DNA from: a virus | IMG/VR virus record: IMGVR_UViG_3300023196_003770 | Coordinates: 1 to 64,000 of that record | Reading direction: 5' to 3' (one strand) | Length of the DNA stretch: 64,000 nucleotides | Shown: piece by piece, positions 3,898 to 57,128 of the stretch | How positions within the stretch are numbered: the first letter of the stretch is position 1 | Layout of the letters: each line of letters opens with the position of its first letter | The notes under the pieces: generated by a model | What the model saw: only the letters and a program-made list of their open reading frames with translations | The model's database searches: none | What the model was told of the DNA's origin: nothing | Translations under genes and position numbers: made by a program

Positions 3898-5211
3898 TCA
3901 ATCCGAATTTGACTTTAGTGTAGGGAAGAATACTACATCACGTAGATTAGGAACGCCACAGAGAAGCGAAACCATTCTATCAATTCCAAAGCCAGCACCA
4001 CTCTGAGGAGGAATGCCATGCTCCATGCATTCAAGGAAATCTTCCTCAATCATCATAGCTTCATCATCGCCATTGGCACGCTCCTGCATCTGTTGTTCCA
4101 ATAGCTGACGTTGTAGAACCGGGTCTGTAAGCTCCGTATAACACTTAACCACTTCCCAACCATCCACAATAAACTGCCATTGCTGTACCGTATTAGGATC
4201 GTTAGAGTGTCTTGCCGCCATAGGAGACATATGAGCAGGATAATTTGTAACAAAAATAGGATCAATAAGCTTTGGACGAACCGCAGTCTTAAACAACAGA
4301 TCCGCTTCCTTAGCACTCATATCATCCGGATAACGTCCAGTATGCTCATTAAACAACTTACGATATTCTACAATCGGTGCCTTATGCCAAGCTTCAAGCT
4401 TTTCCTTAATGTCCTGATTGTGAGCAAAGGTATTATGCAGCCTATAAATCAAATCTCTAAAAAGCTTCATATTGTCGCAATAATCCCAATACGAAGCATA
4501 CCATTCAAGAGAAGTAAATTCCTGCAAATGAGAAGGATCAATACCTTCATTACGGAACTGCTTGCCAATCTCAAATACACGATCAAAGCCAGCAGCAGTC
4601 ATACGCTTAAGATATGTCTCTGGTGCAATACGCAAATAGAAGTCTGCATCAAGAGCGTTATGATGCGTTACGAATGGACGAGCCTGAGCACCGCTTGCCT
4701 GTGGAGTTAGAACAGGAGTTTCTACTTCCATAAAGTTAGTTTCTTCAAAAAAACGACGGATAGAAGAAATCAATTCGCTACGAAAACGAAACAGCTTACG
4801 GCTTGCCGGATTAATAGCACATTCCAGCCACCGCTTACGTCGCATAAGCTCTGGGTCAGTCATGCCATGCCACTTATCAGGAAAGCCACCACAAGCCTTC
4901 TGGAGCCTCTTAAAGCCCTTGTTAACCAATACGGTGCGCTCACCCGTTGAAGACGTCCAAACCTCTCCTTGGATGCCTACAATGTCTCCGATACGAGGGA
5001 TAGAAGACCATTCCTTGAACTCCTCTTCATTCATCATCTTCTTATTGAAAGAAAATTGAACCTTTACATCGCTATTGTCTGAGATATGACCAAATGCAAC
5101 GCCGCCCATCTTACGATAAGACAATACTCTGCCAACAAGAGAAATAGGAACTCCGTCCTTGAGGTAAGTAATATCATATGCCAACTGATTATTTTCGGTA
5201 TTCCAAAACAT
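3898..5211 (-). CDS. lysS: class II lysyl-tRNA synthetase
   Basis: Charges tRNA-Lys with lysine using ATP. It has an N-terminal OB-fold anticodon-binding domain (about residues 20-115: ISLVGRVLSYR, VQFSFN, DIVGIQGEVW), so it is a true LysRS and not the truncated EpmA type. The class II catalytic domain follows: motif 1 around FFEETNFMEVETPVL, the LysRS-specific ARPFVTHHNALD and LRIAPETYLKR, motif 2 FEIGKQFRNEGID, and motif 3 GAGFGIDRM near residue 407. At 437 residues it is shorter than the E. coli enzyme (about 505) but complete. Where bacterial enzymes usually read EIANGFSEL, this reads EVVKCYTEL, changing the conserved Asn to Lys in the lysine pocket. It has hairpin terminators upstream and downstream, hence probably its own transcription unit. 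No tRNA-Lys is seen in the window. Confidence 0.93.
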   Translation of the reverse strand: MFWNTENNQLAYDITYLKDGVPISLVGRVLSYRKMGGVAFGHISDNSDVKVQFSFNKKMMNEEEFKEWSSIPRIGDIVGIQGEVWTSSTGERTVLVNKGFKRLQKACGGFPDKWHGMTDPELMRRKRWLECAINPASRKLFRFRSELISSIRRFFEETNFMEVETPVLTPQASGAQARPFVTHHNALDADFYLRIAPETYLKRMTAAGFDRVFEIGKQFRNEGIDPSHLQEFTSLEWYASYWDYCDNMKLFRDLIYRLHNTFAHNQDIKEKLEAWHKAPIVEYRKLFNEHTGRYPDDMSAKEADLLFKTAVRPKLIDPIFVTNYPAHMSPMAARHSNDPNTVQQWQFIVDGWEVVKCYTELTDPVLQRQLLEQQMQERANGDDEAMMIEEDFLECMEHGIPPQSGAGFGIDRMVSLLCGVPNLRDVVFFPTLKSNSD

Positions 5212-7593: not shown

Positions 7594-7951
7594 TGGAGAT
7601 AGGCAGACTCGAACTGCCGTCCACAAGAGATCCAAATAATTTGTTGTATCACATAGCATAGCTCTTTTATAAATTACCCGCCATAAACTTAACCAAAGAG
7701 CAGATTGTATACGGCATGGTTTCAAAATTTAAGTCTTGGCAGTAGAAACTATCCCTACAAGACCGAGTTTGTTTAATATCAACCTAAAAGATCCTCAAAC
7801 GGCGTATCTTTTAAATTGCTAGCTGCGTTCAGGCTGCGAGAGCGTAAGAGTTATCGTTTGCACTTACTATTGTTTACGGTTTTAAACGGTCATAAACGCC
7901 CGTTGCTATGCAAATTATTCTTCCTTCCCGTGTCGAAACCAATTTATCCCC
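7594..7951 (-). ncRNA. ssrA: transfer-messenger RNA (tmRNA), one-piece
   Basis: A 358-nt tmRNA. The 5' end reads GGGGATAAATTGGTTTCGAC, the conserved tmRNA opening. The 3' end has a T arm (GGCAG-TTCGAGT-CTGCC) and TATCTCC, which pairs with the 5' GGGGATA to close the acceptor. The tag reading frame at 7829-7861 gives ANDNSYALAA then TGA. Its resume codon GCA is at nt 91, almost the same place as in E. coli (tag ANDENYALAA). tmRNA rescues stalled ribosomes with SmpB and tags the product for ClpXP-type proteases. No smpB is visible here, so host SmpB is presumably used. CCA is not encoded. It has its own downstream terminator. Confidence 0.95.
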
Positions 7952-52931: not shown

Positions 52932-53310
52932 CTAACATTTCTCCTCGGAGTATACGCTCTCTCATTATTCTCTCTTGCAATTCACGAATATTAGGTTCTT
53001 CTTCAACAACCATGTTATATTTTTGTTTGCTACGATCAACAAATTTAAGAGCCACACGATTAACAGCCATTTTATTTTTCTTAATCTCTGCCATGGCTTC
53101 ATGAACAACCATTTGAACTTCTTTGCTATCAAAGAATAATTTCATTTCTAAAATTTTATCTAATGCCTGTTCGGTATCCTCTAATGCCTCTACAGCATCA
53201 GAAAAATCATCTTCAATAATCATGATAATCCGTGCAAAACGAATTAGATAAAATAATGATGAAATTAGTAGAAATAATAATACCAGAGTTATTAATCCAA
53301 ATATAATCAT
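52903..53310 (-). CDS. membrane-anchored coiled-coil protein, 135 aa
   Basis: An N-terminal transmembrane segment (MIIFGLITLVLLFLLISSLFYLIRF) is followed by a long charged helix (DDFSDAVEALEDTEQALDKILEM, KNKMAVNRVALKFVDRS, RELQERIMRERILRGEM). It overlaps the sigma gene by 29 bp at its 3' end and the glycosyltransferase gene by 4 bp at its start (ATGA). No family is recognised. Similar membrane-anchored helical proteins of phages could be spanins, antiholins or membrane tethers; nothing decides. Confidence 0.65.
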   Translation of the reverse strand: MIIFGLITLVLLFLLISSLFYLIRFARIIMIIEDDFSDAVEALEDTEQALDKILEMKLFFDSKEVQMVVHEAMAEIKKNKMAVNRVALKFVDRSKQKYNMVVEEEPNIRELQERIMRERILRGEMLDENTQDFNR

Positions 53311-54485
53311 CCTAATACTTCCTTAAGTGCTTCTGTGTATTGAGCAGCTACTGCCTCATAAGAATATTCCTTCTTAAGAGTTGCAGCTAAATCTTTAGCC
53401 CATTGTTGAGGCATCTGTGGGCTTTCTACAAACTTCTTTACACGATGCTTGAAATCGTCTTCTTTAACATTTGCCCACTTGGCTTTTTCCATCCAAATCT
53501 GATTATCAACTCGGGTTTGATGAATTTGCTCTAAACGATAGTCAAGCTTTACATACTTTCCTTTACCAAGGAACTCTGTATGGGCACTCCAGCCCGTAGC
53601 AATAACTGGAAGACCAGAAGCTGCTGCTTCAAGGATTGGAAGACCAAAACCTTCACCACGAGTTGGAGCAACAAGAGCCTTAATCTTTGGATGCCTATAA
53701 AGAGCAGCTACTTCATTATCACTCATATCTCCATGAAGAAGATAGAACTTTGGAAACTCTGCGCCTTTCTTAATCTCCATCGTAAGTTGCGCCAATAGAT
53801 TTGTAGTTCTAAGACGATCAACTACTGTATGACGCCCAGTATTTGTCTTTATTACAACGCCAACGTCTGGATTATCTTTGAACTGTTCTGCTAACCACTT
53901 AACCGTATAAAATATATTCTTACGATCATTTTCTGGATTATTACCAGTTATCTGTCCAAATACAAGAAAGTTAAAATCTGTCTTGAGTTCTAAATCAATT
54001 TCTGATAGCTCAGGTGTAGCTACAGCATCAATAAATGCTTCTGGAATAACAACAACCTTGGTCTTTACTTCGCCGCTATTTGCAAATACTTCCTTAACAA
54101 ACTCTGAAGGAACAATTATAAGATCCATGCGATTAATAGCTGATATCCATGCAGGATTACATACGTCGCCTTCAACACCTGCCGTTATTCCAACGTTATA
54201 GTCTGCAAGAAAAGGGTTCCATTCATTTGGTAACTGTAGCTGTAAAGAAACGTCATATTTATCTCTCTTGCCAGCAGCTTGCAATAAACGACCAATCAAT
54301 CCATCTTGAGCATATGCATCAACGTGCCAAGGAGTAGCGCCCCATGGAAGAGGCTCTGTAACAATATCAATATTTCCAGTCTTATCTGCCAAATCAAATA
54401 GCCAACGAGCTATCTGACGAGCATGAACTCCATAACCGCTAGCCGTTAATACTGGACCACGAAGAATTACTGTTTTCTTTGTCAT
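53307..54485 (-). CDS. GT-B glycosyltransferase (family 4-like)
   Basis: The ATG at 54485 (MTKKTVILRGPVLTASGYG) follows AAGGGAT; a further-upstream start in the same frame is not favoured. 392 residues. The N-terminal domain has GPVLTASGYGVHARQIARWL, a glycine-loop start common to GT4-like enzymes and similar to the SPSGVGVQARF of the neighbouring gene. The C-terminal domain has FLVFGQITGNNPENDRKN, then APTRGEGFGLPILEAAASGLPVIATGWSAHTEF, the E-x7-E nucleotide-sugar binding motif. It transfers a sugar from a nucleotide donor in the cytoplasm. Target is probably phage DNA, virion protein or host glycan. Confidence 0.85.
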   Translation of the reverse strand: MTKKTVILRGPVLTASGYGVHARQIARWLFDLADKTGNIDIVTEPLPWGATPWHVDAYAQDGLIGRLLQAAGKRDKYDVSLQLQLPNEWNPFLADYNVGITAGVEGDVCNPAWISAINRMDLIIVPSEFVKEVFANSGEVKTKVVVIPEAFIDAVATPELSEIDLELKTDFNFLVFGQITGNNPENDRKNIFYTVKWLAEQFKDNPDVGVVIKTNTGRHTVVDRLRTTNLLAQLTMEIKKGAEFPKFYLLHGDMSDNEVAALYRHPKIKALVAPTRGEGFGLPILEAAASGLPVIATGWSAHTEFLGKGKYVKLDYRLEQIHQTRVDNQIWMEKAKWANVKEDDFKHRVKKFVESPQMPQQWAKDLAATLKKEYSYEAVAAQYTEALKEVLG

Positions 54486-54499
54486 TGCTATATCCCTTA

Positions 54500-56104
54500 T
54501 CACTTAATATTGATCAACTTGTTAGCAGGAGCTGGATTAATACCGGTAAGCTTCCAACGCTTAAGAGCACCGGTTTCTTTCCTTGTCTTATAATCTTCTA
54601 CACACTTTAACATCGTATCATGCCAGCTTTGAACCATATTTTCATACTTGAACTCATGGTCAAGATATTCAGCAGCCTTCTCTCTAAACTCTGCCTTCTT
54701 CTCAGGCGTCCAACCATATACTTCCATAAAAGCATCTGCCACTTGACGTTCCGTGCAATAGTCTTCAAAGATATAAGGAACCATTTGTGAACCAACCAAT
54801 GAACGCTTTGCTGGTTCAATAGCAACGCCGTATTGATAACCATTGCGATAATCTTCTGCTTGACGTGTTTCGCCACCGGTCTTAAGAGCAATGATTGGCT
54901 TGCCAACCTGTAATGAAATAAGAGTAGAAAGACCAAACCCTTCATTCTTAGCTATGTTAACACAAACGTCTGCAAGGTTATGCATAACATTCATTTGTTC
55001 AAATTGAAGACGATCATTTGAGAACCAAACGTTATCGTTTAATCCAAGCATATCAGACACGGCAAGAAGATTTGGACCTTCCATATCATTTGGATCTGTA
55101 TGCATGATTAGTACTGCATTACGGTGTCCTTCTTTCTTCTCAAGGTCATCAAGAAAGGTCTTCCAACCAAGAAGAACATCGTTTGGCATTTTGCGTGTAG
55201 CATTACGATTAATCCAAAGAGCCTTAAACCAGTCAGCTTTTGCGCCAAAGTTCTGTTGCTTAAGATGATTAATTTGTTCTTCTGGAAGAGGGTTATAAAC
55301 CTGCTTTGGGAATGTATGGGGAATGTAGTTAGTCTTCTCTGGGAAATGAGGTTTAACCATTTCAAACGTTTTATATGAAAGGCAATTGATTAGATCGGTG
55401 CTTTCATACCATGGGAAGTTAAATGCTGGATATGGATCATTATCCCAAACGTGCCAATAGACGATTGGGCATACTTGATGGATTTCATCTTCCATTTCCC
55501 AAAGCCACGTAAACTGACGAGGATCTGTAAACAAGAAAATTGCGTCTGGTTGTTCTGTAATAAGAAGCTGACGAATGAGTTCCTTGCTTCCAAAGCCGTC
55601 TACAGGCTTTACAATGAAGTCAGGATTGACAGCTATCGTATCATACTTTGCGTGCTTCATAGCGCCGCCTAAGCAGCGGAATGACCATTGACCGGTCTTG
55701 ATAAGACCATCAATCAGGAAACGTGCTTGGACGCCTACACCCGAGGGAGCTACATAACTTATATTATTTCTAATATAACCAGACTATATCATCATATGAT
55801 TATCATATGCTGGGCGCTGTCGGATCATTACCATAAGCTTTTAAGCTTTTAGGTTAACCGTAGTCGTTGAACCTTTCTCACCGTTTCCGGACAGAGACTT
55901 GGCTGCTGATTGTCCAATCATCATATTTTTTAAACATTCACGTTTGTCGTTTCCAACTGCGTTGTAGTATATGATACTTAAGGAGTTTCCAGCAATTCAC
56001 CCAGTTTTACATCCACTAACTCAACTCAATGGATGATCACTTAACGTGATTACTTTATATTTCTTTTTGAAATTGAATGCGGTCAAGAAATCATTATCAC
56101 TCAT
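54500..56104 (-). CDS. GT-B glycosyltransferase gene split by a group I intron
   Basis: Exon 1 is 56029-56104 and exon 2 is 54500-55749; the join gives 441 residues. Exon 1 encodes 25 residues from MSDNDFLTAFNFKKKYKVIT to LSDHP plus the first base of the next codon, and exon 2 continues SPSGVGVQARFLIDGLIKTG, restoring the Gly-rich nucleotide-sugar loop in frame. The rest of the protein has the two-domain GT-B build with NEGFGLSTLISLQVGKPIIALKTGGE as donor-binding region. Without splicing, exon 1 stops at TGA two codons into the intron. A Shine-Dalgarno AAAGGAT precedes exon 1. A second, truncated copy of exon 1 lies upstream at 56998-57063. Confidence 0.85.
55750..56028 (-). ncRNA. group I self-splicing intron, 279 nt
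   Basis: All four conserved group I elements occur in order on the minus strand: P AATTGCTGGAAA (55986-55997), Q AATCAGCAGCCAAG (55898-55911), R GGTTCAACGACTA (55861-55873) and S GATGATATAGTCT (55781-55793). P1 is CATCCATTGA/TTAGTGGATG, with the splice-site U pairing G as expected; exon 1 ends in that U and the intron ends in G. A 3-bp P10 (GAG with exon 2 CTC) is possible. No ORF lies inside. Splicing restores the reading frame, which is independent support for the boundaries. Confidence 0.9.
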
Positions 56105-56969
56105 GTATAAAATCCTTTATTTTTTTTAGCATATCTTCTTTATTTTTTTGCATTTCATAAGCCCATACTATCATGATAGAATAACCTGCTTCTTTTATTA
56201 TGTTTTTTCTTTTTTCATCTGATAACCATATATCTTCAGCAGTTTTGTTTTTTACTTTATGAAAGTAATTTGCCGGATATAACTTTGGGTTTGCGTGCCA
56301 ATAATCGCCATGATATTCAATTATCTTATTTGAGTCTGGTAAAAGTATATCTGCAAAATATTTTACTTCTTTTATTGGTAGTTTTACTTCCAATTCTGCT
56401 GTTGAATTAATGCTTTGAACATAATCAAAAAGCTCTTGTTGTGGCTTTGATATTTTTCTGCGTTGAGCCAACATATATGCATTAGTGACTCCATATTTTT
56501 TACTCAAAGACGTTTTCTGTTTATCTTTTTGAGCTTTTGTAAGGCAGCGCCCAAACATGGGATTATTAGTTCCGGAAAATAAAACTTTCATATATTCTTT
56601 TTTACATTCCGAGCTGCATACTCTATGCTTTGCGGTTTTTTTATATCTCGGCGGATAATACATCTCAGTATCACAACAAAAACATTTAGCTACAAAACCA
56701 GATTTATCATTAGTATGAGATGTCCATTTGCTATAGGCTCCAATTAGAACATAGTGTTTTGAAGCACATGAACGATTACAAAAATTTCCTTTTTTATATC
56801 TAATACGTTCAAAGCTTTTTTTACAACATAGACAAGTTCTTGTTTCTAATATATTTTTATTACTTTTTTCTCTTCTGTTTTTACGATGTTTTACGAGACA
56901 GGCACGAGAACAAGTCTTTTTTTGAGGATTTCCTTCAAATTCTTTACGGCAGATATTACATGTATTCAT
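56097..56969 (-). CDS. EDxHD/Vsr-like homing endonuclease with zinc fingers and NUMOD
   Basis: A 290-residue free-standing homing endonuclease. N-terminal zinc finger pairs (CNICRKEF, KKTCSRAC; CLCCKKSF, FCNRSC; CFCCDTEM, CSSEC) are followed by a NUMOD3-type segment (GTNNPMFGRCLTKAQKDKQKTSLS, about residue 140) that binds DNA. The catalytic domain resembles Vsr/EDxHD nucleases such as I-Bth0305I: LPDSNKIIEYHGDYWHANP about residue 215, then IWLSDEKRKNIIKEAGYSIMIVWAYE. It ends 7 bp inside the start of glycosyltransferase exon 1 and 68 bp from the intron. It is flanked on both sides by copies of the glycosyltransferase 5' end, which points to its insertion there. Confidence 0.85.
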   Translation of the reverse strand: MNTCNICRKEFEGNPQKKTCSRACLVKHRKNRREKSNKNILETRTCLCCKKSFERIRYKKGNFCNRSCASKHYVLIGAYSKWTSHTNDKSGFVAKCFCCDTEMYYPPRYKKTAKHRVCSSECKKEYMKVLFSGTNNPMFGRCLTKAQKDKQKTSLSKKYGVTNAYMLAQRRKISKPQQELFDYVQSINSTAELEVKLPIKEVKYFADILLPDSNKIIEYHGDYWHANPKLYPANYFHKVKNKTAEDIWLSDEKRKNIIKEAGYSIMIVWAYEMQKNKEDMLKKIKDFIHE

Positions 56970-56997
56970 ACACGATAAATATATGTGGAGTAAGAGT

Positions 56998-57063
56998 TCA
57001 CGTGATTACCTTATACTTCTTCTTAAAATTAAAAGGGGTGAGAAATGTGTTCTCTTCTGACAT
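56998..57063 (-). pseudogene. truncated second copy of glycosyltransferase exon 1
   Basis: The frame reads MSEENTFLTP-FNFKKKYKVIT then TGA. The real exon 1 has FLTAFNFKKKYKVIT followed by LSDHP. The match covers about 20 codons; differences are mostly synonymous third positions (TTT/TTC, AAG/AAA), so the copies diverged separately under selection. The sequence similarity stops at the ACGT of the last shared codons. A good TAGGAG site precedes the ATG. It now acts, at most, as a 21-residue leader peptide just before the endonuclease gene. Confidence 0.8.
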
Positions 57064-57128
57064 TACTATCTCCTACTATGATGATGATATTTTCACTAAT
57101 AATGACGCATATGTTTAGAATTACAATA

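Follow-up and report, generated by a model that had tools for sequence, protein, structure and literature searches.

A homing endonuclease gene, a replacement gene start and a group I intron as a likely mobile cassette at the 5' end of a phage glycosyltransferase gene

Introduction

Among the described partnerships of homing endonucleases and introns, the free-standing enzyme F-CphI and the psbA intron of cyanophage S-PM2 are an example of collaborative homing (Zeng et al., 2009; PMC6083498; reviewed in PMC3984707). By what route an intron and a free-standing endonuclease that is separate from it acquire a common target has been called unclear (PMC10448857). A different arrangement is known from fungal mitochondria, where mobile open reading frames (ORFs) with foreign C-termini occur in atp6 of Allomyces and in atp6, atp9, cox2 and nad3 of Glomus; for the ends of Glomus atp6, identities of 64% versus 91% are given (PMC3630166). 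Here, a locus from a phage contig, the 89 kb virus record IMGVR_UViG_3300023196_003770, is compared with these systems. Positions 1 to 64,000 of this record constitute the stretch of 64,000 nucleotides that was analyzed (the window). It contains a gene for a glycosyltransferase (GT; sugar-transferase) whose 5' end is occupied by a homing endonuclease gene (HEG), a second gene start and a group I intron. Comparison with related loci makes it likely that HEG, foreign replacement start and intron form a homing cassette that invades the start of the GT gene, mends the gene and leaves the old start behind as a stub.

Organization of the interrupted gene

Read along the minus strand, the locus consists of a Shine-Dalgarno sequence with the stub, followed by the HEG, the second start, the group I intron and GT exon 2 (Table 1). 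A first-pass annotation, made from the nucleotide sequence without database searches, had placed an endonuclease between two 5' ends of one gene, and all of these elements were recovered on the minus strand at the coordinates that it gave. In the resident reading frame the HEG is placed after codon 21, and the ATG of the replacement exon overlaps the HEG stop by 8 nt, within ATGAGTGA. The two 5' ends had been described as differing mainly at synonymous positions. This holds for the shared FNFKKKYKVIT part, in which all differences between stub and replacement exon are synonymous, but not for the first eight codons, where amino-acid changes and one length change are present as well. Strong selection for recoding of the replacement exon was considered and rejected: roughly every second codon shared by the two copies is the same, and AGY serine codons are found at the insertion point in other lineages, so that a foreign origin agrees with the divergence and no special recoding is needed. 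A search of the phage collection returned no near relative of the window GT, the best match being 37%.

Table 1. Elements of the interrupted glycosyltransferase locus, listed in minus-strand order
Element	Position	Strand	Basis
Shine-Dalgarno AGGAG of the resident start, before the stub	57070..57074	-	Sequence; identical in all empty relatives
Stub, resident GT 5' end: MSEENTFLTPFNFKKKYKVIT, then in-frame TGA at the junction	56998..57063	-	Sequence; comparison with empty relatives
Leader from stub stop to HEG; left end of the mobile unit	56970..56997	-	92% to L009 across 26 nt; not present in empty relatives
HEG, 290 aa	56097..56969	-	84% to L009, 45% to L029/L033
Replacement exon 1, second start MSDNDFLTAFNFKKKYKVITLSDHP	56029..56104	-	4/76 differences versus L009; synonymous saturation versus all residents
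Internal guide sequence of the intron, GTGGATG	56010..56016	-	Sequence and fold
Group I intron, 276 nt, no ORF	55753..56028	-	Rfam RF00028, 85.3 bits
GT exon 2	54500..55752	-	First ~16 nt (55752-55737) L009-like, co-conversion tract

Empty alleles and the resident gene start

Relatives, referred to by L numbers, were found by scans with GT exon 2 and with the peptide FNFKKKYKVIT. Eight of them (L002-L006, L008, L024 and L025) carry the intact MSEEN-type gene for which the first-pass annotation had proposed to look, without stub, HEG or intron. In these empty alleles the reading MSEENTFLT..FNFKKKYKVITLSDHPLAPSGVG is continuous, and exactly one copy of the start is present in a matching gene context. 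At the GT locus of the examined records with empty alleles, no member of this endonuclease family was found. The window stub is 95-97% identical to the intact gene starts of L002, L003, L005 and L024, and the intergenic spacer upstream of it is 92% identical to L003/L024. This identifies the stub as the start of the resident gene at its original location, interrupted after ...GTAATCACG and thus 16 nt short of the intron site.

Two side observations concern the variability of this region. The empty alleles L024 and L003 show zero differences in ~360 nt upstream of the GT gene and differ at 14 of ~120 positions across approximately codons 10-38 of GT, exactly around the inferred homing site; this patch may mark a past conversion, or one allele may have become resistant through a change in its site. 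Furthermore, L002 and L009 contain ~1.9-2.8 kb of additional DNA, with one gene in common, between the GDP-mannose dehydratase and GT genes, which is not present in the window or in L003/L024. The gap between these two genes is another exchange hotspot adjoining the same locus.

A second carrier and transfer as one block

A diverged phage, L009 (IMGVR 3300035670_008805), shares both the two-copy layout and the junction with the window. Together with the single uninterrupted gene in the eight empty relatives, this dismisses a chance resemblance of the two copies, a possibility raised in the first-pass annotation. Between the window and L009, the synonymous divergence (dS) amounts to 1.42 and 0.83 in two upstream genes and to 1.63 in exon 2, whereas the HEG has 0.36 and the replacement exon 0.29, which places the block 2-5 times below the genes on either side. 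Per-site differences between the two carriers are 21% for the stub (final 9 nt excluded), 11.6% for the HEG, 5% for the replacement exon and 4% for the intron; in exon 2 they are 6% over the first 16 nt and 21% beyond them. The intron is ~96% identical between the carriers and 73-74% identical to those of L029/L035. For the right-hand change-point in divergence, the support interval is 55755-55733, with the intron end at 55753; differences rise from 4.5% before it to 20.6% after it, and 0 of 500 shuffles gave a change as strong. The first 14 aligned nt of exon 2 contain one difference to L009 and four to L024, and beyond this L009-like tract, ~90 nt of the window match the empty L024 without a difference. 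On the left side, the window stub is 97% like the empty alleles of its own clade and ~20% divergent from the L009 stub.

Given the low dS of the block and a stub that resembles its own empty relatives, HEG, replacement exon and intron moved as one unit, and the recipient's own start became the stub. The alignments read as homing with a short co-conversion tract, in that the block ends at the element ends and the recipient start is kept in truncated form. The suggestion that one 5' end had come from a diverged phage is thereby borne out, with the stub as the resident copy and the intron-adjacent copy as the foreign one that travels with HEG and intron. Likewise, the empty sites and the block transfer seen with L009 support the proposal that the HEG invades a gene start with its own replacement N-terminus and turns the old one into a stub. 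This earlier reading is corrected in that the moving unit includes the intron. In addition, the stub is more than a leftover, as its native position can be used as a left homology arm.

The intron and its predicted splicing

The adjacent intron, which had been described as lacking an ORF, does so and is of group I: RF00028 scores 84-101 bits in the window, L009, L029, L033 and L035, and this covariance-model match is accompanied by a P1 helix with U.G at the 5' splice site and a terminal G. Splice sites are predicted at 56029/56028 and 55753/55752 (CATCCAT/TGAG...TTATG/TAGCTCCC). Joining CATCCAT to TAGCTCCC would restore ...SDHPLAPSGVG..., the exact reading of the intronless relatives, in an open GT frame of 442 codons. 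The guide GTGGATG pairs with the exon-1 end CATCCAT (56035-56029), with the U.G pair at the splice site. In most residents the codon is Leu CTT, so that the splice position is C and not U; since CTT residents are unable to provide the U.G pair, the intron depends on an exon-1 end that comes with it. The guide of L029 fits its own replacement exon (CATCCGT). The L029 stub was also considered as an alternative 5' splice site, which would create a long intron containing the HEG, and was rejected because its CATCCAT mismatches the guide; the window stub does not contain the site. An exact scan for the intron core returned L009 as the sole match.

The endonuclease

The HEG protein combines Cys-rich N-terminal segments and a NUMOD-like region with a C-terminal Vsr/EDxHD-like nuclease domain. 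This catalytic domain was modelled with a predicted local distance difference test score (pLDDT) of ~90, and a Foldseek search with the model matched Vsr (1cw0, prob 0.99, E 0.05) and I-Bth0305I (3r3p, prob 0.57, TMt 0.61). A sequence search of the PDB with the HEG returned no relative. The candidate catalytic residues D207, E218 and H225 are invariant among the relatives compared, while H220/D222 are present in the window, L009 and L083-L086 and are M/N in L029/L033. Between the window and L009, the ratio of nonsynonymous to synonymous divergence (dN/dS) of the HEG is ~0.22, which indicates that the reading frame is maintained by purifying selection. As a separate observation, related phages encode other EDxHD-like C-terminal domains (L029 record, G012:1094-1354; L038 record, G016:107896-108231; L008 record, G006:99064-99435).

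Recurrence in other glycosyltransferase lineages

GT loci were examined for an intact junction, and in some of them the 5' end was readable. Beyond the window and L009, four interrupted alleles were identified (L029, L033, L035 and L045). In L029 and L033, whose GT is ~60% identical to that of the window, a stub (MSEQQKIDNDLIAKPSKKHKILILSDHPFC-stop) precedes a 45%-identical endonuclease, and the order of elements is as in the window. Their replacement start MLIDSTGLVQPMLPQKKHKILMLSDHPLT has a 56-nt overlap with the endonuclease gene. The group I intron (101 bits) occupies the same codon as in the window, and the spliced frames are intact. The stub of L029/L033 ends 5 nt after the intron site, compared to 16 nt before it in the window, and this truncation is therefore independent of the one in the window. 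The stub layout thus arose at least twice, with different truncation points. L029 and L033 have 6 differences in the ~1.4 kb that extend from the stub almost to the intron end, followed by ~28 differing sites in ~170 nt of exon 2 directly after the intron; this step has the appearance expected of different conversion tracts. L035 has kept the intron and the replacement start with an endonuclease reduced to approximately its C-terminal 65 codons and is a decayed element. In L045 the intron is present and the upstream side lies off the contig. With this exception, every intron-bearing allele among the readable GT 5' ends is accompanied by the HEG, whole or as a remnant, and the layout without a link to the endonuclease, named at the outset as counter-evidence, was not encountered there. 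The layout is seen in independent contigs from different metagenomes.

The other EDxHD-like HEGs (L083-L088) showed no convincing flanking duplicated gene start, and a scan of the genome contigs for the HEG gave no match. The HEG leader is too short for its similarity between lineages to be judged. In L029, a strong hairpin at 4625-4670 (TACTCCCA...TGGGAGTA; z -1.7) would cover the site where ribosomes bind the HEG message, similar to the way in which translation of T4 HEGs is damped. Elsewhere in the window, a phage-encoded tmRNA with the tag ANDNSYALAA (7594-7951, minus strand) and tRNAs for Asn, Ala and Glu are present.

Proposed mechanism and alternative explanations

In the proposed cycle, the enzyme would cleave the GT gene of an empty allele near the intron site, a position suggested by the two independent truncations, neither of which is more than 16 nt away from it. 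Repair from a carrier would then copy HEG, exon 1 and intron into the recipient. On the right side, homology in exon 2 would guide the repair and a very short tract would be converted, while on the left side the recipient's gene start would be kept in shortened form as the stub. In the first event, the broken left end was probably joined without homology to DNA before the donor's HEG, and the donor was probably a phage in which the HEG directly preceded the gene. In subsequent events, the stub would provide the homology on the left side. A full-length GT would be rebuilt from the replacement start, with its start codon overlapping the HEG end, by splicing of the intron. The new allele is predicted to resist the enzyme, because the intron interrupts the site and exon 1 is changed.

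Several observations weigh against this mechanism or narrow it. The locus is mosaic through general recombination as well, with short recombinant patches even between empty alleles, and the junction of the window type is common to two carriers only. The structural match of the enzyme to EDxHD/Vsr folds is modest, with no E below 0.001. In L029/L033, EYHGD is changed to EFMGN with loss of the catalytic-site His in an otherwise conserved frame, which makes activity doubtful there, and this enzyme may be inactive. The mosaicism of the locus also feeds the alternative that the block was exchanged with a diverged phage through general homologous recombination, with the HEG as a passenger and no current endonuclease action. 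This is unlikely, since both block ends match element ends (the stub 3' end and the intron 3' end +16 nt), the non-homologous junction that made the stub was formed on two occasions, each time within 16 nt of the intron site, and purifying selection acts on the HEG. Two separate mobile units, namely an intron that moved alone by reverse splicing or through a past HEG of its own and a HEG that arrived independently with the replacement start, would explain why the HEG differs more between the carriers (11.6%) than replacement exon and intron do (~4.5%). The HEG may indeed have a partly separate history, although its dS is still close to that of the exon. Still, HEG (or remnant) and intron occur together in all readable carriers and neither in the empty alleles. 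The intron guide matches the replacement exon both in the window and in L029, and neither the L029 stub nor the CTT-type residents, which lack the splice-site U, would suit it; separate movement is accordingly quite improbable.

Vertical inheritance of an old insertion, with loss in the relatives and divergence of stub and copy in place, would account for the junction common to the window and L009, yet it is contradicted by the low dS of the block relative to both flanks and by the close likeness of the window stub to its own empty relatives, and we consider it very improbable. Even less credible is that the stub is the remnant of a tandem paralogue or the arrangement an assembly artefact. GT paralogues do lie in tandem here (neighbour at 53307-54503), but this neighbour has a different N-terminus and the empty relatives have one copy of the start in the same gene context; an artefact is at odds with the recurrence of the layout in independent contigs. 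The homing cassette with its own replacement start thus remains the preferred explanation.

Comparison with known systems

As in the F-CphI/psbA pair, a free-standing enzyme is associated with an ORF-less intron that would protect the carrier allele. HEG and intron were inherited together into empty alleles, as seen from the single block, its shared boundaries and their co-occurrence. F-CphI, however, has an Endo VII motif, whereas the window enzyme is Vsr/EDxHD-like. Moreover, F-CphI adjoins psbA and leaves the gene unbroken, while the window HEG does not lie beside an uninterrupted gene: it is inside the coding start, with a foreign exon and a stub. In T3 gene 5.3 and phage phiI I-TslI, an HEG also adjoins an intron-bearing gene and cleavage occurs at the intron insertion site (Bonocora and Shub, 2009, cited in PMC10448857 and PMC3984707); a duplicated or replaced gene terminus is not mentioned in these two sources. 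The seg genes of T4 (segF/gene 56) share a free-standing HEG next to an allele differing from the target, co-conversion of flanks and intronless homing, but there the genes are intact, without stub, replacement exon or intron (PMC2988022). For the enzyme itself, I-Bth0305I offers a possible likeness in its Vsr-like catalytic fold with an extended DNA-binding region (Taylor et al., 2011, described in PMC3943268), and its target of nearly 60 bp is about the span of the window replacement exon. The structural match to the window HEG is weak, however, and is not accompanied by a PDB sequence match.

The fungal mobile ORFs share an HEG in a coding region, a diverged replacement gene end, a hybrid gene and the resident end as a remnant (PMC3630166), so that the replacement of a resident end by a foreign one recurs at the window locus as a mirror image at the 5' end. 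They differ in that they act at the 3' end with LAGLIDADG/GIY-YIG enzymes, in mitochondria and with no intron in the unit, compared to a 5' end, a Vsr/EDxHD-like enzyme and a phage here; because the 3' end is replaced, they need no new start codon. No phage element with a replacement 5' exon and a stub was found in the searched literature, which omits most subscription papers.

The comparison supports the window locus as a variant of collaborative homing that invades a gene start with its own replacement. An intermediate can here be read from the sequence. Joining on one side only leaves the stub behind and brings endonuclease, replacement exon and intron together as a block that can be transferred; within a single gene family, this happened at least twice. 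Such events could be the origin of collaborative-homing pairs. They also suggest that the enzyme is not confined to introns or intergenic sites, as invasion of an ORF is possible if the missing gene end is supplied, and the presence of empty, carrier and decayed alleles of one gene makes the cycle testable. A conceptual parallel is the engineered home-and-rescue drive (PMC7968924). Whether the locus represents a recurrent class of phage mobile elements that acts as a natural drive of this kind, breaking the 5' coding end, supplying a changed start and a protecting intron, and converting the stub into a homology arm, is in our judgment evenly balanced.
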